The translations under genes were made by a program, and so were the position numbers. Shown in pieces: positions 44,831 to 60,400 of a stretch of 64,000 bases of DNA. The stretch comes from Coffea arabica (lineage: Eukaryota; Streptophyta; Magnoliopsida; Gentianales; Rubiaceae): positions 6,634,001 to 6,698,000 of the forward strand of contig NC_092329.1 of NCBI RefSeq assembly GCF_036785885.1, written 5' to 3'. How positions within the stretch are numbered: position 1 is the first letter of the stretch; each line of letters starts with the position of its first letter. The notes under the pieces are model-generated. The model was not told where the DNA came from. It did not search any database and worked only from the letters and a program-made list of their open reading frames with translations.

Positions 44831-45058
44831 TAGTCAGGATTTCTTGACTTCTCAAATTCAACAAGTACATTCGTTTGGTTCAGCAGTGGTTCCCTTTGGG
44901 TTTCCAGTGGCTCTGTTGGGTAATGTGTGGACAAAAGAACAATAACTAGTATGTTCCGGACAAAAGTTGGCTAAGTTAATATTGACCAACGAGAGATAAA
45001 ATTGTCCGTTAAGTAAAAAAAAAATTTGCCTCTTAAATTGTGTTCTGGTACCAGCAAT

Positions 45059-45755
45059 TAGGGGTGGCAATTTTCGACACGACCTGAAAACACGACACGA
45101 ACCTAACACGAAATTAATGGGTTTGGGTTGAGGTTTCGGGAATTCGGGTCAGAATCGGGTTGGACCCAATGAACCCGAAAAGAAAACAGGTCGATTTCGG
45201 GTCAACCCGTGGTGACCCGATATGACCCGTTTACGAATTAAAAATAATTTAATAAATATAAAAATAATTTTATCTAACTAAACTAAGTTATTCTTTTTTT
45301 CAAAGGCATTAATTACTTAATCCTAAATGAATTTATTTAATTTGTGTGAAGTTGAAATTATTATATTTGGACAAATAATATATTATATTATTTTTTACTT
45401 TTATATTGTTTTAATTTATTTTATATTTTGTTTGGGATAAAACACTTTTACGGTGTTTAATTTATTTTAGATTTGGTTTGGAATTATTTATTTAAATTTT
45501 TATTACTTGATTATGTAATTAGTTTTGTGAGAAATTGATTTTATTAGAAATTACAGTGATAAATTAATAAATTAAAATTAAGTTTCGGGTCATTTCGGGT
45601 CGACCTGCCAACCCGCAAACCTGAAATTTTCGGGTTCGGGTCAGCATACCTGACCCGTCACGGGTTGGCGGGTCGAGTTCGGGTCAACAGATTTTCTGCC
45701 GGGTTGACCCGGACCCGACCCGCCAACCTGATTTGGACCCGAATTGCCACCCCTA
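45059..45755. mobile_element. hAT-like non-autonomous element, 697 bp, complete
   Basis: Perfect 12-bp terminal inverted repeats TAGGGGTGGCAA / TTGCCACCCCTA with a perfect 8-bp target duplication CCAGCAAT (45051-45058 and 45756-45763). The arms are dense in GGGTC/CGGGTT repeats and the core is AT-rich. There is no transposase frame. The unworn ends and duplication suggest a fairly recent insertion. Confidence 0.88.
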
Positions 45756-45763
45756 CCAGCAAT

Positions 45764-46159
45764 AGCTGGAGTTGGAAAATAAACCTAGAATAGGAGTATT
45801 CAATTTGAATTAAATATACGTAGTGCACAATGCACAATCATAGTACTAGGTGAATGCAACGTGCCCCAAAACAGGGAGAATTGACTTGCTGAAAAAAAAA
45901 GAAAGAAATCCATAATACCTAGGAAATGTCTACAGCAGGCATGATTTTGATTTGCAACCCTCTGTGAATTTTATAAGAATTTTCTTTCCTTTGCCACTAA
46001 GAATTACGGATTATATGTTAGTTTTGGACCACTATTTTTTTTTTCGTGGAAGAATTGGACCACTAATAGTTTACATGACCATTTTCCTCCCAAAAAAGAA
46101 TAGTTGGTATGGCCATTTGGTGTTCTTTATTGATTGGACTTTAGCCAATCTATCTAATC
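45764..46159. other. intergenic, no feature recognised
   Basis: No gene or repeat could be supported. Confidence 0.4.
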
Positions 46160-46299
46160 CCGTTTGGATTGCATTTTTCATGATTTTTCATAGAAAAATT
46201 ACTGTAACGATTTGATATATGTGAGGGAAAAAGATAATAGAGAAATATGATCACGAAAAACGACACAATTTTTCGGCAAAAAATGACAATCCAAACAGG
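46160..46299. mobile_element. MITE of the TTTGGATTG-terminus family, copy 7
   Basis: CCGTTTGGATTGCATTTTTC at the left and AATGACAATCCAAACAGG at the right are inverted repeats. With the copy at 8761-8884 it shares the core TGTAACGATTTGATATATGT almost base for base. Confidence 0.72.
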
Positions 46300-47335
46300 G
46301 CTGAACTGCTTTTGTTTTCGTACAAATTAATTTTATATAATTAATCCTTGAAAATTAGATTTTTTTTAAAAAATAAATCATGTATTCTCGTTTGTTGTTA
46401 CAAAAGCTATTTAAATGTATGCATGGGTGTTCTCAAAAGAAAAAAATAGAACCCACAATCAGACTCCAAAAGTAGTATGATACAGCCTTTAATTTGCATT
46501 TTTTTCGTCCCCGACAAATCTAAAATCAGAATACAAAAAGTTGAAATAAATTTTAAAAATGAAAAGCTGAAATAAAATCATAGAATTTGCTGAGAATAAA
46601 AACGAGCTGATCGAGTACGAATAGGTATTATTGATTGATATAAACACTTTAAAATTTTAGAAAAGATTGTAAAAAAGAGAACAAAATCACTTACTAGCAT
46701 AATGGTTTAGAGTAAGATAATTAATATAGATTCCAACCAAGTAAAAGCCTAGGATTAGAAGACTAGGCCAAAAACAGAAGAGATCACGGTAAGCTTATTC
46801 CCCCAAACCCATGCTAATTTTTTTTTTTTGGTCAAAACCCAAACCCCTGCTATTCAAAGGTGCCACTCATCATTAATGTACTTTTATATGGTAAAATGCT
46901 GGTCAAAGAAGTGGTTTAACTGGCATTTATAGGTAAATTTAAGGGTTTAAATGTGATAAACACCATTATCCTCGTAATAAAATATTCATTTGGAATTGCT
47001 TTGTTACTCTTTTTAGGCAAAATAAGTAAGTAAATAGATAAAGCCCTTTAGATGAGGGTTTGGTTGGACGATAAAATAGTACGAGGGATTATAGATAGAA
47101 AATTCTAGTTCAAAATTTATTACTTAAAAAAAAAAAAAGAAAACATTATTGACTTTGCAATGTGGGTGGTCCTCATTCAACGATTTCTCTTCTCGTCTTT
47201 CTTCCTTCCTAAGTTCACGCATGTCCATGTAATAAATAACTTTCAACTATAGCAGCCTAAGTGGCTAACCACTGAATTTTCATCGTATTAAACAAGTCAA
47301 TCAGTCAGTTATACGAATTTCACTGAACTTCTATT
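46300..47335. other. intergenic, with a short oligo(dT) insertion
   Basis: The direct repeats CCCAAACCCATGCTA (46802-46816) and CCCAAACCCCTGCTA (46838-46852) differ at one base and flank a 21-bp T-run-plus-GGTCAAAA. This resembles a retroposon tail insertion, as at 8500-8533. Nothing else is recognised. Confidence 0.45.
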
Positions 47336-47344
47336 TTTTACTAA

Positions 47345-48164
47345 GGTATAATTTCAGAAACCTCCCTTGAAGTTTTTAACAATTTCATTCAGCTCTCTCA
47401 AGATTTTAAAAATTACACGTGCCTCCCTTATCATTTGAAATCACAATACTACCCTTAAATATTTTAATAAAATTCCTTTGTTTTGTATGCTTATATACTT
47501 AGAATGACTTTTAAAATTATTATTTTTCATTCTTTTTCCCGCTTATTCTTTTTTTTTTTTTGCCAATAGAGCTATAGAACTACTACTATTATCTCTAACT
47601 TCTATTATAACCAAACGTCGAACTATTGATTTTTTTTATGAGTTAACTTTATATGCAATTTAATGTTTTTACTGATCTTTGTTTTCTATTTTTTGGTATT
47701 AAAATTAACAATAAATAAAAAATAAATAGCCCAAAATCACTACTAAATTATGATAATCCCACTATTCAAAAAATTCATAAATCCTAAATGAATTATTTCA
47801 ACATTTTCTTTTCTATCTTATAAATCTAATTCATAATAAAAATACCATTAAAAGTATCTTATCATAGTGATAAAATTATTATTATAGTTATTTATCAAAT
47901 AGTAAGTATTGACATGAAAATTTTGGCGCCTTTTCCTTATAACTATACTAGATAATCTTATAATTATATGGGAAAATAAATTAAAACTCATTACACAAGG
48001 GCATTTTTGGATATTCATTTAAAAATTTGATCAATTCAATAATATTATTTTAAGATTTTATTACAAAAACTATCAAATCAAAGGAGGTAGGTATAATATT
48101 TCAAATCTCAAGGGAGTTTAGTGAAATTGTCAGAAACCTCAGAGATGGTTTCTAAAATTATCCC
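47345..48164. mobile_element. Mutator-like MITE, 820 bp
   Basis: The left end GGTATAATTTCAGAAACCTC pairs with the complement of the right end, GGGATAATTTTAGAAACC. It has a perfect 9-bp target duplication TTTTACTAA (47336-47344 and 48165-48173), the typical Mutator length. The core is AT-rich and has no coding region. Confidence 0.78.
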
Positions 48165-48639
48165 TTTTACTAAAACAAATTGTCTATTATTAAATAATGT
48201 TGTTGTAATTAGCTTCATTCTTTCTTGGGTTTTCTTTTTGGCAAGACTATCTTCCTCACGCTGATATGAACGTAAAGGACGGTAGGTCGACTGTGCTTGT
48301 CAGAATAGAAGAGTCATCATTATAGTTCTCAAGAGATGTGTGCTCTAAGGAGGAGGACCCTTCTAGGAATGTGCAAGGATGATTGTGACACTTGATTTTG
48401 ATCTGCTTCATCTCCTCTTGTTTAGATAGTTATGGGCAAATCTGATGATGGCATATATTTTCTTTTCTTTGGGTAGAAATCCGATAGCCTATTGAGAGGA
48501 TCTTTCTCTGATTTCTCCTTCTATCCATGGCCAGCCTGGCAATGGATCAGCTGCCTTTTTTTGGATGGTTGAAGCAAACAGCCCGCCTTATTAACATATA
48601 TAGCTAAATGTGTGAATGCCATTCCCTCAAATTGAACTC

Positions 48640-48830
48640 AATTGCTGATGTGGCGCTCTCCCATTGGTCAATTGGTGGTAGTCCTCCAATTGATTCCAAT
48701 TTGATGAGTTGTCGTTCTCTGATTCGTCGATTGGTGGTAGTCCTCCCAATTGCATATGAAATTGATGAAGTGGCGAGTTTTGATTGGATGAAAAGTGGTA
48801 GTTCTCTAATTGCATATAGGATTGTACTAA
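48640..48830 (+). repeat. short tandem repeat, about 64-bp unit, three copies
   Basis: ATTGGTGGTAGTCCTCC followed by an AATTG...GATGA stretch recurs about every 64 bp (near 48672, 48731 and, diverged, 48796). It leads into the larger degenerate array that follows. Confidence 0.6.
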
Positions 48831-48833
48831 AAT

Positions 48834-49640
48834 TTTGCTTCTTTCTTTTTTATCCAACAAATCACATTAACAAAAAAATTGGATTCCTTTTTTTTGTTGT
48901 CCATCAAATCACATCTAATTACCATTCTTTGCACTTAATTGTTAATAGCTAATTTAATGTCATGTTTTTTGTCATACAACAAATCACGTTTAATTAACAA
49001 TTTTTTTGCAATTATTAGCAAAAAATTGACTTCTTTTTTGTGGTGGCCCAAAAACCACCTTTAATTATCAAATTTTTTTCTGGCTGTCCAACAAATCACA
49101 TCTAATTACCAAATTTTTGCAATTAATTGTTAATAACTAATTAATAATGTCAAGTTTTTGGTCACCCAACAAATCATGTTTAATAACAGTTGTTTGGAAT
49201 TATTAAAAAATTGGCTTCTTTTTTTGTGGTTGCACAAAAAATGCATTTAATTATAAATTTTTTTCAAATGTCATAAAAAATGTCCTCTTTTATTTTGGGT
49301 TGTACAACAAATTATAGTTAATTATCAATTTTTTGTAATTAATTGTTAATTAATTAATTAATTAGAAATTTCACTTTCTATTGCCTAATAAATAACATTT
49401 AATTGCTAGCCTTTTGCAATTATTAACACTTTTTTTCTGTTGCTAAATGAACCACATCTAATTACCAACTTTTGCAATCAATTGATAATTTTTTTTGGAA
49501 GTGAATTGTCACTTTTTATTGCCTAGCATATAACATTTAATTACTAGCTTTTTGTAATTATTACCTCTTTTTTTGGTTACCAAATAAATCCCAATTATTT
49601 GTCAACTTTTTTGCGATTAATTGTTGATCTACTTATTACC
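48834..49640 (+). repeat. degenerate minisatellite with a higher-order period
   Basis: About twelve diverged units of 60-75 bp carry the theme CCAACAAATCACATCTAATT, then ACCAA, a T-run and GCAATTAATTG. Three-unit blocks also repeat: 48896-49081 and 49082-49267 align over about 186 bp, giving a higher-order period. Confidence 0.65.
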
Positions 49641-49991
49641 TTTGGAAGTCTTTTATATTGAAGAACTTTTTACCTTTGGAACTTTTTTTTGCATATGGTT
49701 TGAGGATTTATGGGTCTTTTGCCCTTTTTACTTTTGATCAATCAAACGGCATCGTATGCTGATGGATCTTCAATCCTTTTTCTTCCGCTTTTCTCTCTCT
49801 CTCTCTCAGTCAAACGCACAACTATCAGTCAGTGTCAAGAACTCTTGAAGACCGATCCCTATTGCTGTTATCCTCCAGACAAAATTCCATCTTCGTGAGA
49901 CCCATAGTTCTCCCCTGAATTTCTGGCATTTGATTGTACTTGAAACAGGTTGTAATCTCAATTGGGGTCCAAATTTTTTTTCTTCTGACAG

Positions 49992-52900
49992 AGTTGATGG
50001 ACGATGGGCTCAAGAATGCAAAGCGACTGGTAATCTTCCTCTCCTCCCTTTGTCGATTTATCCCTCCTGTTCTCCTTCATCTCCCTCTCTCCATACCTCA
50101 AGTAATTATAGCTGATTTTTTCTATTTCTCTGCCATTTTGCCTGATATTTCCTTGGCTAAAAACAATCAATTCTTCCCCCTTCTTTTTTTTTTGGTCCTT
50201 TTCTGAAACAACGAGGAAGTGAAAGGTTAATATTTCATCTCTACTGTCTATATGAATTTGTAGAATACAGATATGGTATTTTTCTTCCCCTTTCTTTCCA
50301 TGGTTAACGTCTTTGTTTCGTTTCAGTTTTATCATTAAATTTTTATTTTTAGTTTCAACAAAAACCTTTTAATATGGTCGGAGATGGTGAATAATTGATG
50401 ATTAGCTGGCTTGTAGATATTTATTTACTTTATTTTTTGTACCTACTTGGTGTTTTATTGTCCCATTTTTCTTTCCATTTTTGCCTTTCTTGGATTTCTT
50501 CTGCAACAGGGAGGAAAATTGGCCACCCGTGAAAGACAACTGCTGAGGGGAAAAACGTAAGCTTTGTTCTATCATTCTAATTTAATTTTTACTTTAAATT
50601 GCTCTTTTCAGAGCTCAAATGATGGTATACTTTTCTTTGGCCTTTGGTCTTTTCAAACCTCGTTTGAGTTTTCTTTTTAGTCATTTTTTTGGTGTCTTTC
50701 GTGCAGGTGTTTTGTTGATCTCTTGCTCAGAAAAGCAATCCAAATGGTAACCAAAAAGATTCACTTGTTTAAAATAGATTTCTTCATCTTCAAAATGTCT
50801 TTCTATTTGCTCCAGTTCTTCCGATTCCTTTTTCTTCATTGGGTTTTCAACATTTGAAGAATGAATAAATTTCTTCTCTGAGAATCAGGAACTTCCAGGT
50901 CACATTGGTCATTGGCCAAAACTTTGAGTTACAAAAGATCGTGTGATGCTATTCTTTTGATTGCTTTGTGTTGAAATTTTTTGTTTTAGTACATAAATTG
51001 TCTCTTGGTAAAACCTCTTGAATATTCGTTTTATGAACCTTAAGTGGATATTAAACTGAGTATCTTGAGCAATATATTTTTTTGTTACAATGGCAATCTA
51101 AATGGTTTTCCTATTTGTAGGTGGTTAAAGGTTTGTCCAAGACGAGGATTCTCAAATATTATATTCTAAGCACCTGCTTGAAATAATAAGTTACTGTTTT
51201 AATAAAACACCTTAAATTTTCTATTCCTTGATCAAAAAAAGAATTAAATTGCTACATAATTGTAGTTTTGCCTCTTGAATCATGGACTACGATGTTTAAT
51301 AGCTTGGAAATTCTTATTAGGAAAATCAGTTTTGGTTAACTTAAGTCTATATTTACAAAACATGATTTTCTCTTAGATTTGTAACATTTCAGTAAGATTA
51401 AGTCTGGAAAACTGAACCTTATGATAGTTTTTTTACTTGTAAAAATGAACTTAATTGAGATAAGCCTAAACAGAAAATTTTGTGACAAACATGAAGACGG
51501 TATTCCAATTGATAGGTTCAAAAAGGTGAATGTGATGCAGACCTTCAATTTATGTTGAAGTTTTTTATGCAGGAAAGAACTTAAAGGAAGGGCATGTTAC
51601 TTTTGAAGAAAATTTGGTAGAACTCCTAATTTGTTTTAACTGGATGGATAATTTGTACTAAATATAACACATTTGGATGTTCAAATATGAGGACAAGATG
51701 CCTCTACTTTGAGATAAATGGCATACAATTCTTCCTAGAATTTGAGAATACAATCACTTCTTTGACACATCCAACTATTTTTGGAGAGGTGTTTTTGGAG
51801 TCATCTTACCTCAGATTTTTTATGAGAAAAATTGACAGAAAGACCTCAGAGCCATCTCTCTCCTATCTTTTGTGTCAAAAAAAAATCTCTCCCATTTCCT
51901 TTCTGTGCAAAAAGTAATTGTTTTCCTCTTTGCTGGCGAGTTAAAGTACTGGGAGTTACAAAACCAGAGACCTTCCCTCAAATTCCTGCAATAGAGGAGT
52001 TTGGCTCAATGCTAACAAGACTAATCAATTCCCATCAAATAATTTTCCATATCTCAATCCCCTCCAACTCAAAGTTTCTATTTGAAAAGTCCCTTCTGTT
52101 CTTATCTTCCTTTCTTTCTCTCTAAAAACTGCTGGCTTCTCCACTCTTGTTCTATGTATACTTTTTCTCTTGATTAAATTTTATTTTATTCTCTAATAAG
52201 TTTTATATGTTTGCTACGGGTTGAGAAATAGGGATTTGATACCAAGTATGAATGATTGGAAATTCTTTGCTCAAGTAAATACTTTTAGGATCTCTGTTTT
52301 TCTATTTTTTTTTCTTTCTTTTTACCCGAAGTCAACTGTAATCTTCTCCTATCTTTACTCCTCTTTCATAGATGTTCAAGAAATGGACTATGGAGAGGAC
52401 AATCTGCCTCTTATTGAAGTATTTCCTAAAATTCCAGTGTAAGTCATGATTAAGAGGTTGTCAGGTCTTTTTAAGCAACTCCATTAAGTAATTATCCTTA
52501 CTTAAGATCCAATATTTTATGCTTTCACTTTTTTGCATTGAAACTTGTGATTATTTCCTTAGATGAAATGGTTTAATTTCTTTCTTTTTTTTCATGTTCA
52601 TAGAAATTTTTGTTTTCCAGTTGATATTGCCAATAACTCTTTATAAGTAAAAAATTCAAAGTAAGAGGGTGTGGATTGACTGTTTCTGTTAAACTCTCTT
52701 AGTTAGTTGGTAATGATTTTGTCATTTTTTTTCTTTTTGCAGCCAGCTAATGCGCTTTTTGGACAACTTTTTATAGCTCAGGTGAGTGAAATTCCATCTT
52801 GGGGTCTTTTTTCCTTGGATTTGGATCAAAATTGTTTGATTAACGACTAGAATGTCATGTTTGCTTTGCTAAGCATGCTATCTACTTTATTTATTCAATG

Positions 52901-55221
52901 CTTAGGGTTAAATTCTAGGCTGTTAATGGTTGAAGTAGTTAAATTTCAAACCATGTAAGGTTTGTGAACCATTAAATGAAAATATTGAATTCTTGAAAGG
53001 GCTGTGAAATCAAAAGGGTCTTACTCAGAAAGGAGAGGAAAACTTGTGATATTAATCTACATATCATCTTGCTTCATGTAACTATAGACTTTTATTTTAA
53101 TGTAAAAAAAGCAAGGAAAAAATGGTGGGTTGTATATTTCATTTACAACTGTTAATCATGTTGAAGAATATGGAGAATAAGTTCATTAATTTTCTCTGAA
53201 TCATTCTCATGTTATTACCATGAGGTTGTTTTAATTATATTCTTCATTTGGCCGACGCTTGTTTACACTAAATTTTTGTTAGATGAAGGAAGAACGAAAT
53301 AAGGAGGCTACTTTTCTTATTTCAGCCTTCAAGGTATGTGCAGGAGTTATCGTTTCAGTGTTTTTGTTCTCTCTTTGCTTTCTTTTTTTTTCAAATTTAT
53401 TTAGCAGTTTATTCTTTGCACAACTATTGATGGATTTTGGGTAAGTCATTGGAGGCTGTTTATGGATTTCAAGGTGAAGAAGTGGATAAAGAATCTAAAC
53501 TGACACCTTATGGTGAAAAAATTAGTCGAGATATGTGGTGATGGAAATATCACAATTAGCCTGGCACTATTGTCTTTGAGCTACTGGAAGATGATCAATG
53601 TGGTTCTTTACAAACTAAAATTGAAGGATATAGCAGTCCAGATGCCAAGTCAAACCCTTTACAAGACCCTCGAACTAGCTTTGGATTCGGAACGCAAGTC
53701 TTGGTTTTCTTTTGAATTGATGTAGTTCAGAATTTGAGTTAAATAGGTACTTATTTACCTTATGCTATCCTCGGTTACTTGTTACTTTTTCTAAAGAAAC
53801 TTAACTGATACAAATTCCCCAATTTATTGAACCAAAAAAATTTTTGCTTTTGTTTTTAATTGGACCTATAATACAAATTTCCCAATTTAATCAAGATCTA
53901 AGAATTGTTACATTGCAGCCCTGTTTCTATTTCAAAAAGGCATATTTATGGAAGCCTTATGGAATTGTATTAATAATTTCTGCATTAAAAGCTTTCAGTT
54001 GATCTTGACTTTACTGATTGGTCCAAGATTGCATGTAATGATCTTATGCCTTTTCTTAATGAAGATGATGTAATCCATGGGAACTTCAACTTGCTATTTC
54101 ATTGATAGTTTAAATAGTTCATATCAAGTTGGTCGGTGGTTTACATTTTTTCTTGGTTTTAGGTATTCCTGTTAGCTTGATTTTTTCTTGAATTCCAAGT
54201 CATCCTGTCCGCTCATTGCCTTTCTATTAAATGATGGAAACCACATGGATGACTTGATTGTGCTTGTTTCCAAATAATGTATAGGTATTACTGTCATTCT
54301 TGATGAATAGCAAGTTTTCGCCTAAATTCAACATCTCTTGGTTGAGGACTGCATGTGCTGAACCCTCTTAGGTTCATTTGCTTTCATCCCTCAAATTTCT
54401 AAATCCCTTTGCATTTCCTTCACTCGTTGTTTTTTGAATAATCACTTGTTGCTATGAATCATATAAGTGCTTACTGAATTTGCTTTTGAAATTTTGGGAA
54501 GAAAAGTGAGAAAGTTGATGAATTGCTTGAGTTGGCTGGCTACTACAAGACTTTTCTCATGAATTCTTATCAAGAAGCAAGGTATGGTTTTGCAACCACA
54601 AATAGTTTGGATATGAACTATTTTACTATTTGCTATCATTTATCTTTCCCTGGTATAGTGATCAATAATTGTGAGATCGATTGGCCTCTTTACTTAATCA
54701 ATAATTTCTTTTTCATATTTGTTTCCCATGGAAATGTTTGTTCTTTCATTTTTATTTCTCAAATTTCAATATTTTTGGCTTCAAAACTTATCACATATTT
54801 CGTTCCTATTTTTACATGGTGTTATTCTTAATTTTGTCTAATGTGTAAAGTTTTGGTTTCAGCATACAAGAGCTTAATCTACAGTTGATTTTGACACATA
54901 CAAGGCCATGGCAGTAAAGAACGTCATCACCATTGCATGTGCACATCAAGCATAGCTACCAGCAAATTGCATATTTTATAGCGGAGAAAGTAGTTTTTAT
55001 TTGCTTCTTGCTGGGCCAATTCTAACTCAATTTATACTGTAATATTATATTCCTTTTAGTTCCATCAGAGTAGTTCATTTATTACTCTGTCCAGATTATA
55101 TCTTTAATGATACATAAAATTCATATGGCTTAAACATAAAATTGCATTACCTCTTGTGCAGGATAAAAACATGACAGTAGGAGATTATTCGAATAAGCTC
55201 TGGGAAGAGGAAGACAAATAA
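49992..55221 (+). pseudogene. fragments of an unidentified multi-exon gene inside the Helitron
   Basis: Exon-like pieces, each with AG before and most with GT after: 49992-50029 (LMDDGLKNAKRL), 50510-50556 (GGKLATRERQLLRGK), 50707-50746 (CFVDLLLRKAIQM), 52372-52438 (VQEMDYGEDNLPLIEVFPK), 52743-52781 (PANALFGQLFIAQ), 53283-53333 (MKEERNKEATFLISAFK), 54502-54581 (VDELLELAGYYKTFLMNS) and 55162-55221 (DKNMTVGDYSNKLWEEEDK then stop). The first three are phase-compatible and could splice together. The step from the fourth to the fifth is not in phase, and material near 53450-53700 (SLEAVYGFQGEEVDKE) is broken by stops. I do not recognise the protein. All pieces point the same way, which suits capture of one gene by the Helitron followed by decay. 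It could instead be a poorly conserved real gene. Confidence 0.4.
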
Positions 55222-55679
55222 ACTCTTGAACGATATTCGGCATTGTAAAGAGATTGAGAAATGCAAGCTTGAGCCATAGTTAGTAAACACTTAGTATCCA
55301 ATCATGCATACAACTTGTAATAATTTATAGAAGTTTTTTTTAAACTGTATTCTTGATTAATATAGTTGGCCTTGATTCAACATATTTGGCCAATATAGTT
55401 TTATAACTTATTTTAGTCATTACTCCTAATTATGGATTATCTATTTTGTTTTAAAAAAAAACTATTATAATGGGCTTTACACTGGGCATACTACCTATTA
55501 ATTTCACACCGCGCATTGCGCGGTGATCCCCTCCTAGTAGGTTATAACCGCATATAGACAAAGTCAATATGCATGCTAGCTGGTCTCAACTATCACAACG
55601 TTAATTTTCAATTTATGTTGCTTGGATGATTTTTATCAAATCTAAGTGGTAATTGATTGAGTAAGTAGGAGTACTTAGA

Positions 55680-55875
55680 GCCCCTCACTCACAGGCACCT
55701 CGTTTGGTCACGATTGCTTCCTTAAGGCCGTTGTTCAGCCACTCGCAAGGATTCGAACCCCGTGATTAACGTGTTCGGAGGGATGGGGCCTCTCCTTCCG
55801 GGCCGAAATGGGATTAGTCGGACCCCGTAAGAATTGACCCGGACACCCATTCCGTCAGCCAAAAAAAAAAAGAAA
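55680..55875 (+). mobile_element. tailed SINE, plus orientation
   Basis: A 196-bp unit with a 3' A-rich tail (from about 55860). It is flanked by a 17-bp target duplication, AAGTAGGAGTACTTAGA (55663-55679) and AAGTAGTAGTACTTAGA (55876-55892), with one difference. The body has a box B-like GGATTCGAACCCC and the GGATTAGTCGGACCCC-type segment seen in plant SINEs. It lies 140 bp beyond the Helitron terminus. Confidence 0.82.
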
Positions 55876-55892
55876 AAGTAGTAGTACTTAGA

Positions 55893-56643
55893 AAGTTAGA
55901 ATAGTATTGTATGAATTTTTTGATAAAAAAAAAAGTTTAGATAATTTTAATCTTGTCATAATCATAATCATGATTCAAAATATATCTCTAAAACTCATAT
56001 ATTTCTCTTACGAAATATTTAGACAGTATTTTATGTTGATGTTCACATTTTATACGTAAATAAACACTTAAATAGATTTCTTTTCTTTTCTTTTTTCAAA
56101 AACAAAAAGAAAAATCAAAGATAATGTAGGTTAAAGGAATGATCTTTACCCTTCAATTTTGTGTCAAACTTGAGATGGAGATGTTTGTCTCAAGTTGTAC
56201 TAGTACACGATTCTTCTTGTCTTTGACTCAAAACTTTTTATATTGACTTAAAACGTTTTGGGGAATGAATAGTCCTTTTCAATAAATACTTGTTTATGAA
56301 AAGAATAGCCCAATCAAATTAATAATCTCAATTTCTCTTGTCATTTTGGTTGCTTCTACAGCAAATTATTATGTAGAAATCAAACAATTGTTATTACTTT
56401 CTAATAATTAAGTCAAATTATTAGTAGTTTAGAGTTTCACCAATAATCAGAATGTAGATGAACATAGTTTAGTAACAAAAAGAAGATTATTCAATCTGGA
56501 TAGATTATTATACTAAGATGGACAAACAAAACCAAAATTGACCTCTTTTATCCTTCCTCATGAATAATACTCACATTATCATCCTCAAAAATTAACGTTC
56601 TGACTCATGAATTTATATTTTGAAGGAAATGATAAAATATTTA
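55893..56643. other. intergenic, no feature recognised
   Basis: AT-rich; no gene or repeat could be supported. Confidence 0.45.
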
Positions 56644-56797
56644 GGATTAATCTTATATACATTGTTATTGTCTACACCGTCACAATTAGATATATGATAC
56701 ATGTGTAAAATTTAAATTTGAAATTTGAAACTTACTTTTGTGTCATCTATGCAATCGTGATAGTGTATACATTGACACTGTCTATAAAATTTATTCA
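56644..56797. mobile_element. MITE related to the element at 24251
   Basis: The left GATTAATCTTATATACATTG with TTGTCTACACCG and the right GTGTATACATTGACACTGTC with TATAAAATTTATTC are imperfect inverted repeats. The same palindromic end is seen at 24251. Confidence 0.55.
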
Positions 56798-57419
56798 AAT
56801 ATTTATATAAATATATAAAACATAAAAGATAAAAGAATTTCATGAAAGCTTGCTAAAACTACTGAACAAAAAGTTGAAATAAGAAACAAGAATCAAGAAA
56901 AAAAAAAAAGAAAGAAAAGAATAGCAATCATTAGTTTTGCTCTGGTCCAGTGTCCAGTGTCTCTTCGTCCTCCTTCCCTTCCCAGCCCATTTCTCCATTT
57001 TTTCTCCAGCGAATCTCCTCACTTAACTACTCCCTATATGCAAGAATCTCACAACTGTCATCCACATTGCCTCTCCCAGAAAATTAATTCCTGAAACACC
57101 AAAAAAATAAAAGGAAACAGATTAGCCTAGACCAGATCTGTTTGACAGAAAATTCCAGTATCCTACCTGCTCATTCATCACATATGTAAGTCTCCAAACT
57201 TTTAAAGTTTGAATTTTTGCATCATAATTGCACATCCCGGATTTTTATTTATCCTTTTCTTTCTTTAATTTTCAGGGTATACGTTAAAACTATCTGTAGT
57301 TCTATGTATGCATAGATCTTGGGCTTAGAATTGCCAAAATTGAGAGTATCGAATTGAACTGGGAAAAGGGAAAGAAAAAGAAAGAAAAAAAGCCTTGTAT
57401 TATATTTAAGGTTTAGAGA

Positions 57420-60400
57420 ATGGTGTTTTGGGAGGCGTATGTGAGTGATGAATCAATGGGGACATTTGCTCCAATAGTGGTGTATTGGCTGTATGCTGGG
57501 TTTTACCAGCTGCTTCCACCTCTAGACAAGTATAGGTTGCATACTAGAAAGGAGGAAGATGAGAAGAATTTGGTGCCTTTGGGGTCAGTTATTAAAGGTG
57601 TCCTTTTGCAACAGCTGGTTCAGGCTGTAGTTGCAGAATTGCTTTTTCGGGTAAGAGCTTTTCCGTTTCAGTTTGTTTCCATTTGTTTCTAATTCTTATT
57701 AATTTCAGTTATCTATTTTTTTTTTCATTCTTGATCTTTGGACTGTATTCTTTTGTTGTTGTTGTTGTTATAATGGTCTTCAAAAGCCTCATTAGCTTAG
57801 TAGGAAGAAGGTATAATGTAATGCAGTTACTTTTCCTGCCATAATTCTGTAGGAGTAATCGAGCATTATTATGTTAGTGACCATTCTGATGTCTTATATT
57901 GCTTTAAGGGATGGACATTGGTATTGATTTTTCTTCAAGGAAAGATGAGATGATGCTGAATATTTGAGGTCAGAGTTGGTAATTTCAGTTAATATTTGAT
58001 CTAAAAGGAAAGAGTTTGAGAAGTTTGGTTATTTGACTTTCATGAATAACTATGTTCAAATGGCTATTTCTGAAGGTTAGACACAAATTTCGAGGGCTTG
58101 CTCTGGCAGCCCTCTGGTTCTGCTAGCTATCCAAAAGGGAGTGCTCAGCCTGATTTGCCCAATCATTTGACCATCTCATCTTAGGGAAAGTCAGATGAGC
58201 TTAAACCAAAATGTTTCTGAACTTTTCCTTGCCCCCAAACGTACTTCTCTTTTTCCTTGTTTAACTTGAGTAAATTAAGTCCGCGGGCAAATAGCTGTAC
58301 ATTGGACAATTGTCATCCTGAGGTTAGCGTTTACTTCTTATCTTTGTCCAGATTCGGAGTTCACAACCGCCTTTGGTAACCTTCCTCCATTATTCAGGAT
58401 GCCCTTATTCATTATTTTTGAATTAAATGTTACGCAGTTAAAGTTCCTTGCGTTTTGTGCTCCATTATCTACTTATGCTCTTCGTCAAGTTTGCATGTAT
58501 GACCTGCCACCTCTAACAGCTTACCTGAATTGGTCATTAAAATCTAAAGTACTAGTAGCCAATATGTCCTTTAATGGAAGAATCATGTTCACATATGCTA
58601 ATAAAATTAAATGTGTTTGATTGTTGCACTGTGTTCCTTGAAATACTTGGACAGTTTAGCATTAGATAATCAATATCCTCAAAAGAAGCTGGAGATTTGT
58701 TTTTGATGGGTAAGAAAAATTATCTAATCAGTTGTGCATGAAATTGATTTGTCTATGATAAAATAGGTTTAAATTTTTGTTGGATAAAACACCTGATAGT
58801 ATAGTAAACGACAGAGATTTGAACATCCTTGAAAAGTTATCTAGTTATGTCAAATTTTAATGGGAAACAGTGGAATATTTTCCATATAGCATCAATTTAA
58901 GTCTTAAAGTGAATTTATGTTAAACTGTGTAAGAGTTAAAGAACATATATGGCAGACTCGCACTCTTAGTAAACAAAATTTATAACAGCCTATTACTTAA
59001 TGAAGGCCAAGATGATTCCCCAACGAACAGGCAATGAGTGCCATAACAAGAATACATGATCAGATTTGCGACATCTTTTATTTTTATACAAATGAAGGTA
59101 AAGGCCCAAAAGAAAAGTAACTTTACTTGGGTGGTTACTGCTTTGGAAACTAACCGATGAAGAATGTGATAATCAGTCTATATTTTGTACAATGAAAACC
59201 TTAAAGGGATTTCAACTGGATTTATCTGGCGCGTTCACAGACTACCAATGGTGGAGCTGCATCAGTGCAGCTGCCCCCCCCCCCCCCTCCCCTCAAGATA
59301 TTAGAAATTGTTCTAGTCTCCCTTTTGAATGTAAATTTTTGAAGAACTATATCATTATGAGAATTAGCTTCTGCCCATCTTTCTGAAATTAGAGAATGTT
59401 CTGTTTGCTTGGTTTGAAGTTGTCCTCCAGTTTTGTGTCTGGGGGTTTGGGTATACGTAAAGGTGCGGGATCAAATAGAATGCGATGGAACTTCTAGAAA
59501 CTGCAAAAGGAAAGGTAGTTATAAAAAGTGCTTATCGATATAATGCATCTGCAAGCAGATACAATAGGAAGATTAGCTGCTAATTGGTATCATTCCTGCT
59601 ACCTTTTGCATTCTGATACCATTGTCAAGTGCCATCAGTTTCAAAATTTCCCTACTATATTGGTGAGAGACGATGAAGCTCCTATTTTCTACTGCAAAGA
59701 TTTTAAAGCTATCTGTTTTAAGGAACTTACTCAAACCATACTTGAGTATGTTAAAATAAAATATTACTGTGCAAATCAAAATTGGCATTTAGATTCGAAA
59801 AGAGCTCTTATGTGACTCTATAGTTTCTCAAGCAATCCTCATCCCCCAACCCCCACCACCACCACCAAAAAGAAAAAAAAAACCTATTTAAAAGGAAAAT
59901 GAATGATGAAAGTACCAGAAATGGCTACTTTCTTTTCATGGTAGGGGAGGAGTAAGAGACAGAGAGGAGAGAGCAACTGACCTTTCATTTCTTCTTGTGA
60001 TCCTTTAATCTTGTTCTTGATGATCATTAAGAAAGTGAAAAATATTGGTTTATCAGGCCGTAAAGATGTTTATAGTGGTATCATGTAGACTAAAAAACAT
60101 TTTCTGGTTTTATTGATTATATTAGTGTACTTTCTCAGGAGATTTGATTATGAATGCTAGAATCTTTATACCTATCCCCTTAGAAGTTCTTCGGTTCACG
60201 TATTAGTATTCCTAATAGGATGTGTATTTCCAAACCATAATGATGTAAAGTCTGTTGTAAAACTACAGCACAATGTCTAATGACCAACATATGTGAACAA
60301 CTCATGGAAAGTCAAGATTATGTTGCTTTTCACCTCTATATGTGAAAGTTAGATTCTTACCCCTCTTTTTGTACCAGAGAAATGCCTCTGGTACTTTTCA

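Follow-up and report, generated by a model that had tools for sequence, protein, structure and literature searches.

In this report, we found that a 6,947-bp segment on contig C20 of the Coffea arabica genome is, with a probability that we put at about 0.94, a non-autonomous, gene-fragment-carrying Helitron. It would belong to a large Coffea family, be moved by the RepHel of relatives of about 14 kb, and bear a patchwork of cargo. The segment lies in the window, by which we mean the whole 64-kb stretch that was analysed (C20:6634001-6698000); the genome searched comprised 131 contigs and 1,197,963,845 bases. A sequence-only reading of the window had already claimed such an element, and its precise ends, many copies, empty homeologous sites and a fragment of an acyl-CoA-binding-protein (ACBP) gene now uphold that claim. 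The element and its outer parts, in window positions, are as follows.

48591-55537, plus strand: non-autonomous Helitron of 6,947 bp; copies have both ends in common, and the homeologous site is empty
48588-48590, no strand: host TTA just before the element, variable among copies
48591-48603, plus strand: 5' terminus TTAACATATATAG
48591-49773, plus strand: 5' subterminal region of the family, 92% identical in the cargo-less 1.6-kb relative L059
48658-48748: tandem repeat, 26 bp x 3.2
48898-49265, plus strand: tandem repeat, 188 bp x 2.0
55122-55537, plus strand: 3' subterminal region of the family, 92% identical in L059
55507-55525, plus strand: 3' terminal hairpin with an 8-bp stem and an ATT loop, backed by shuffles, fold and genome-wide motif
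55534-55537, plus strand: CTAG of the 3' terminus; the next base, T at 55538, belongs to the host
Insertion point: host ...CCTTA on the 5' side and TAGG... on the 3' side

The 3' terminus had been called near-perfect for a Helitron, and it lies exactly where it was placed: the hairpin CACCGCGC-ATT-GCGCGGTG fills its 19 positions, and the CTAG, which agrees with the CTRR of Helitron 3' ends, is followed by the T. The hairpin did not occur once in 100 shuffles of the window, its fold (8-bp stem, 3-nt loop) has a z of -5.1, and it sits 12 bp before the end of the element, within the interval of about 10-12 bp that marks Helitron1. No inverted termini were evident by eye between the first 13 and the last 31 bases of the element. 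Genome-wide, the motif CACCGCGC-(2-6)-GCGCGGTG-(2-9)-CCTAGT occurs 243 times, versus 0 when reversed, and CTAG followed by T was found in all 14 distinct 3' ends that were read. A genome search with the last bases (query 55400-55560), proposed at the outset as a way to find other copies ending at 55537, returned 40 scored matches, one being the window itself. Such copies exist: 34 of the 39 others pass through 55538 and five end short. Twenty-two of the 34 stop at 55538-55539, and the remaining 12 extend 2 to 16 bases past 55538.

At the 5' side, copies are alike from 48588-48591 onward, and the sequence preceding this point differs among them, except in tandem arrays. Among 30 5' boundaries, several of which are units of tandem arrays and not independent insertions, TTAACATATATAG is identical in 28 and differs by one base each in L025 and L061; TTAAC, with which it begins, is directly preceded by A in 23 and by another base in seven. 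The three preceding bases read TTA, TAA, TTG, TCA, TCC or TCT. Because these bases vary, and because the empty homeologous site has CCTTG in place of the CCTTA of the window, we assign 48588-48590 to the host and place the start of the element at 48591. The boundary first proposed, 48590, was thus one base off; the 5' end at 48591 recurs in many copies. A head-to-tail pair in L061 (C17:32743500-32753400, position 493), in which CTAG is joined directly to TTAAC, yields the same two ends as inferred for the window copy. The 5' TC that had been expected, and that is stated for Helitrons in passages of PMC2575219 and PMC4683698, gave way to TTAAC. The other Helitron marks that were clearly tested are present, and we class the element as a Helitron whose 5' end, TTAAC instead of TC, sets it apart from the strictly canonical ones.

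The minisatellite noted near the 5' end is real and consists of the two tandem repeats listed above. Part of the 5' subterminal region also adjoins a RepHel copy, L060. Same-direction arrays of the family's 5' ends were observed at C5:34669534-34671898 (L028), C6:36908979-36911414 (L024) and C15:34285645-34286269 (L019, L023); L024 and L028 have a flank in common.

The window copy is inserted between A and T (TTA|TAGG) without a target-site duplication. Several contigs behave as homeologous pairs (C19/C20, C17/C18, C21/C22, C11/C12, C3/C4), and the joined host flanks of the window copy match C19:5388544-5388912 across the join at 82%. In this alignment, host sequence runs up to CCTT, breaks into gaps and resumes at GCATGC, such that the 3' side is reached via gaps only; the CCTTG of the empty site falls within the gapped stretch. 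The sequence-only reading had proposed to look for a locus without the insert and with an intact AT at the join. The C19 homeolog is indeed empty. For the C22 copy, homeologous C21:43828121-43828614 aligns over all 499 bases of the joined query at 97%, as judged from positions only; for the C18 copy, the match on C17 (93%) was confined to bases 1-254 of a 420-base query, ended ahead of the join at 260 and did not resume beyond it. Since the homeologous C19 site lacks the element, the empty homeolog indicates that the window copy entered its site after the divergence of the two subgenomes. Directly to the right of the element, positions 55680-55875 hold a tRNA-box-like GGATTCGAACCCC and an A-rich end, a stretch that we take to be SINE-like. 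Neither ARAGORN nor Rfam reported anything there: ARAGORN gave no tRNA within the 64-kb window, and Rfam at gathering thresholds gave no match in 45000-58000.

Three copies are almost indistinguishable from the one in the window. Counted over ungapped aligned positions, with about 450 bases of each of these copies outside the comparison, the C18 copy has 3 substitutions over 6,503 bases, the C9 copy 6 over 6,502, and the C22 copy 6 over 6,503, of which one falls on host base 48590. By the same count, the C21 copy has 132 over 6,494 and one C11 copy 130 over 6,491; two partial sequences, the C16 copy and a second C11 copy, have 81 over 4,733 and 76 over 4,396. Because the C18, C9 and C22 copies differ by just 3-6 substitutions in about 6.5 kb, recent transposition of the family is shown, insofar as identity among copies can show it; its age in years hinges on mutation rate and generation time. 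An insert of 1.07 kb (C22:60694752-60695829, C9:52704556-52705631) is common to the C9 and C22 copies (L003, L004), with inverted ends CA(A/G)TGTTTT and ATAAAAAC repeated at its borders, at a site equivalent to window 55162-55170. It is nearly identical in the two (1119 of the 1123 columns aligned, counting short flanks), and we presume it to be hAT-like. Because both copies hold the same insert, a Helitron moved again after it was hit. Older ACBP-bearing copies at C21:13.5 Mb and C22:27.5 Mb, probably an orthologous pair, are 85-90% identical to the window over 51785-54907 and only 68% over 49860-50186.

The C9, C18 and C22 copies are more than 99.9% identical to that on C20, while three homeologous flanks differ by 3, 7 and 18%. 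If near-identical copies truly reside in different subgenomes, they must have crossed after the merger. We offer tentatively, at somewhat less than even odds, the suggestion that the family has kept transposing since the allopolyploid formed, with likely autonomous members still present and chimeric host-gene cargo spread across both subgenomes.

Candidate drivers of this movement came from a search for the Rep domain (PF14214, best 150 of 763 candidates scored), combined with family 3' ends taken from pattern positions (the first 100 of 243 places, through C7). Two elements of about 14.0 kb, with 3' ends placed by pattern match and not by reading letters, hold a Rep between family ends, all on one strand. 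The first, C4:68957650-68971629 (plus), has its 5' end at 68957650, Rep at 68963138-68963683 and its 3' end at 68971597-68971629; the second, C6:2205997-2219981 (minus), has its 5' end at 2219981, Rep at 2213941-2214486 and its 3' end at 2205997-2206029. These elements are the likely drivers of the family, given their domain content and ends. Further, Rep lies on the same strand 3.9 kb downstream of the 5' end at C16:39558880 and 5.5 or 5.9 kb downstream of that at C15:34280384. A third family 5' end, L060 on C16, has a 918-aa frame with Helitron_like_N (5.7e-57) and PIF1 (1.2e-66), and a helicase tail in a second frame. An open frame at L060 248-862, upstream of this RepHel Helitron, is presumably Gypsy-integrase-like. 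At the other extreme of size, the cargo-less L059 (1.6 kb) joins sequence like window 48588-49773 straight to 55122-55538.

The sequence-only reading had left the donor of the cargo unidentified. For the 3' part a source can now be named, in three segments.

53432-53553, plus strand: piece of exon 1 of an ACBP gene, 79% identical to the C19 locus
53556-53766, plus strand: from the same gene, at 71%, its last exon with adjacent sequence, almost abutting the exon 1 piece
53862-55029, plus strand: downstream DNA of the same locus (53862-54934 at 69%, 54947-55029 at 74%)

A DNA search of the genome found this source: the four stretches match C19:4619500-4626500 in order, on its minus strand, and homeologous C20:5907974-5909063 matches window 53894-54927 at 69%. 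The protein of the C19 locus contains the Pfam ACBP domain (PF00887, E 6.9e-22). Because the exon 1 piece joins the last exon almost directly, the exons of the acyl-CoA-binding domain are absent from the element. By its colinear homology, 53432-55029 is identified as derived from an ACBP gene locus, and at 69-79% identity the C19 gene may be either the source itself or a close relative of it. Within the element, in-frame stops lie between the two ACBP exon pieces. The older copies L043 and L045 have a broken frame, and their substitutions have no third-position preference. The peptide search that had been recommended for finding the donor was less informative than the DNA: Pfam yielded nothing convincing for eight spliced window peptides (best E 0.072), and a PDB search with one ACBP-like window peptide gave no match.

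The 5' part of the cargo falls into the following segments.

49725-50933, plus strand: 5' cargo, about 81% identical to sister L063, in which the next 1.4 kb is glutamate dehydrogenase (GDH)
50934-51149, plus strand: place of the GDH exons of L063; no GDH in the window copy
51150-51635, plus strand: continuation of the shared cargo, 84-87% identical to L050, L062 and L063
51783-52968, plus strand: further cargo, parts of it common to homeologous C3/C4 and C19/C20 loci at 78-84%

DNA searches found no source for 49725-52968 among about 40 scored places, swamped as they were by copies. The 5' cargo turns up at dozens of sites with an identity near 80%. Sister L063, on C4, has the same family 3' end, and its GDH exons, identified through a sequence search of the PDB and a search of the genome with PF00208, have plant GDH1 as their best match (PDB 6yeh, E 3.4e-63). 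Two loci, C11:63212111-63213600 and C12:62280213-62281686, match its GDH stretch at 88%. In the window copy, 216 other bases fill this place; GDH may have been lost from the window copy or else gained by the sister lineage. With the L063 stretch as query, 100% identity over 1,471 bases was observed at four places near chromosome ends, including the query itself: C4:76817659-76819129 (in L063), C4:76833263-76834733, C4:77298082-77299552 and C3:76898561-76900031. Such identity would fit a recent duplication or transposition of sister Helitrons. Separately, the 5' cargo recurs at 96% at C6:37518868-37522042, with a Rep domain lying about 0.9 kb upstream of it on that strand; this is possibly a nested or chimeric element.

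The exon-like pieces in the 5' cargo raise the alternative that they belong to a normal, functional host gene whose position is conserved, beside a hairpin present by chance. Open pieces with GT-AG borders do exist as strings, as had been claimed, and the first three (49991-50029, 50512-50558 and 50708-50746) can be spliced in frame. They give no convincing sign of coding constraint. Identities are 77, 85 and 87% to L050, where non-exon sequence is at 88%, and 72, 89 and 92% to L063, where it is at 87%. Two of six comparisons are therefore slightly above non-exon identity (0.89 and 0.92 versus 0.87), as a functional gene might have it, but four are below (0.72-0.87 versus 0.87-0.88), and the second and third pieces carry indels in both L050 and L063. 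The suggestion that they could still be spliced in frame thus finds no evolutionary support, and a coding function for the three exons (49991-50746) was rejected on these identities and indels. Further, the entire block recurs with unchanged ends on several chromosomes and is missing from the homeologous site; in-frame stops split the ACBP pieces, whose frame is broken in older copies. Where tested, the captured pieces appear to be free of convincing coding constraint, and we regard a host gene as extremely improbable.

Nested insertion of other repeats into a Helitron, instead of capture of host-gene sequence, is a less remote explanation of the cargo. Nesting occurs in the family, as the 1.07-kb insert in the C9 and C22 copies attests, and the wide dispersal of the 5' cargo would fit a repeat; indeed, 49725-52968 could still contain such repeats. 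A repeat would not explain why the ACBP part follows the order of a host gene and of the DNA downstream of that gene, and as an account of the cargo as a whole we judge nested insertion unlikely. The 5' TTAAC, for its part, invites placing the element in a separate non-canonical class akin to Helitron2 or Helentrons, given that passages of PMC5148889 describe Helitron2 types with other termini and insertion beside T runs. We find this very unlikely, since the 3' hairpin, CTAG and insertion between A and T follow the Helitron1 pattern in the descriptions of PMC5148889 and PMC4683698, and no endonuclease family was among the Pfam matches of three L060 frames at E 0.001.

The preferred reading, a non-autonomous Helitron with captured gene fragments, suggests a course of events modelled on Helitron biology. 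RepHel from the same-ended relatives of about 14 kb would act on the TTAAC 5' end, and one strand of the element would be copied by a rolling circle. Copying would halt at the 3' hairpin and CTAG, the hairpin being the stop, as sections of PMC4778049 and PMC4683698 would suggest for both steps; the copy would then enter the host between A and T, with no duplication of the target site. Cargo could have been acquired by read-through or template switching, for which the same sections of PMC4778049 and PMC4683698 give precedent, and would thereafter be copied as a passenger. The interior patchwork would thus unite an ACBP piece with a segment that sisters carry together with GDH exons.

These results describe a well-bounded, recently active family in a polyploid crop, for which we now have likely autonomous partners and a cargo-less relative as well as one source gene and several empty sites. 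This set of parts suffices for a step-by-step study of capture, and it allows one to ask whether Helitrons moved after coffee allopolyploidy. There is also a practical side, in that annotators could take Helitron-borne fragments for genes. According to the coffee genome paper (PMC11018527), there was no major LTR mobilisation after allopolyploidy; the word "Helitron" is absent from its main text. Papers with Coffea in their titles, including PMC13013560 and PMC10805892, mention Helitrons once or twice each, the latter placing a homoeologous exchange on Chr7 inside a Helitron. In the open literature (subscription papers and supplements aside), we found no description of the coffee Helitron family. 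Searches of the open literature for Helitron capture of GDH or ACBP gave only works unrelated by title, and those for Rubiaceae Helitrons with gene fragments found nothing.

The coffee element adds a new and well-defined case to a known class, the gene-fragment-carrying Helitrons. The maize elements in the relevant sections of PMC2575219 are likewise large, end in a hairpin and CTAG, insert between A and T, and carry host-gene fragments without RepHel; they differ in host and in their 5' TC, whereas the coffee element has TTAAC, ACBP cargo and, in its sisters, GDH. The rice Mothra Helitrons, as portrayed in parts of PMC4683698, are also non-autonomous, with tandem-repeat blocks, a hairpin and CTAG, and their RepHel was proposed to come from a sister family of related elements with similar ends, much as we suggest for coffee; Mothra elements, however, start with TC and span 1.25-2.7 kb, whereas the coffee element is 6.9 kb with a large cargo. 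The hairpin terminator, AT target preference and capture of host sequence recur in Helraiser/Helibat of bats (PMC4778049, in its account of these features), an animal system proven by experiment, whereas activity in coffee is inferred from copy identity only. Finally, the Helitron2/FoHeli elements of Fusarium, in the portions of PMC5148889 that treat their ends, share with the coffee element termini unlike those of the textbook, but in FoHeli each end bears a hairpin and the terminal inverted repeats are asymmetric, whereas the coffee element has its hairpin and CTAG at the 3' end.
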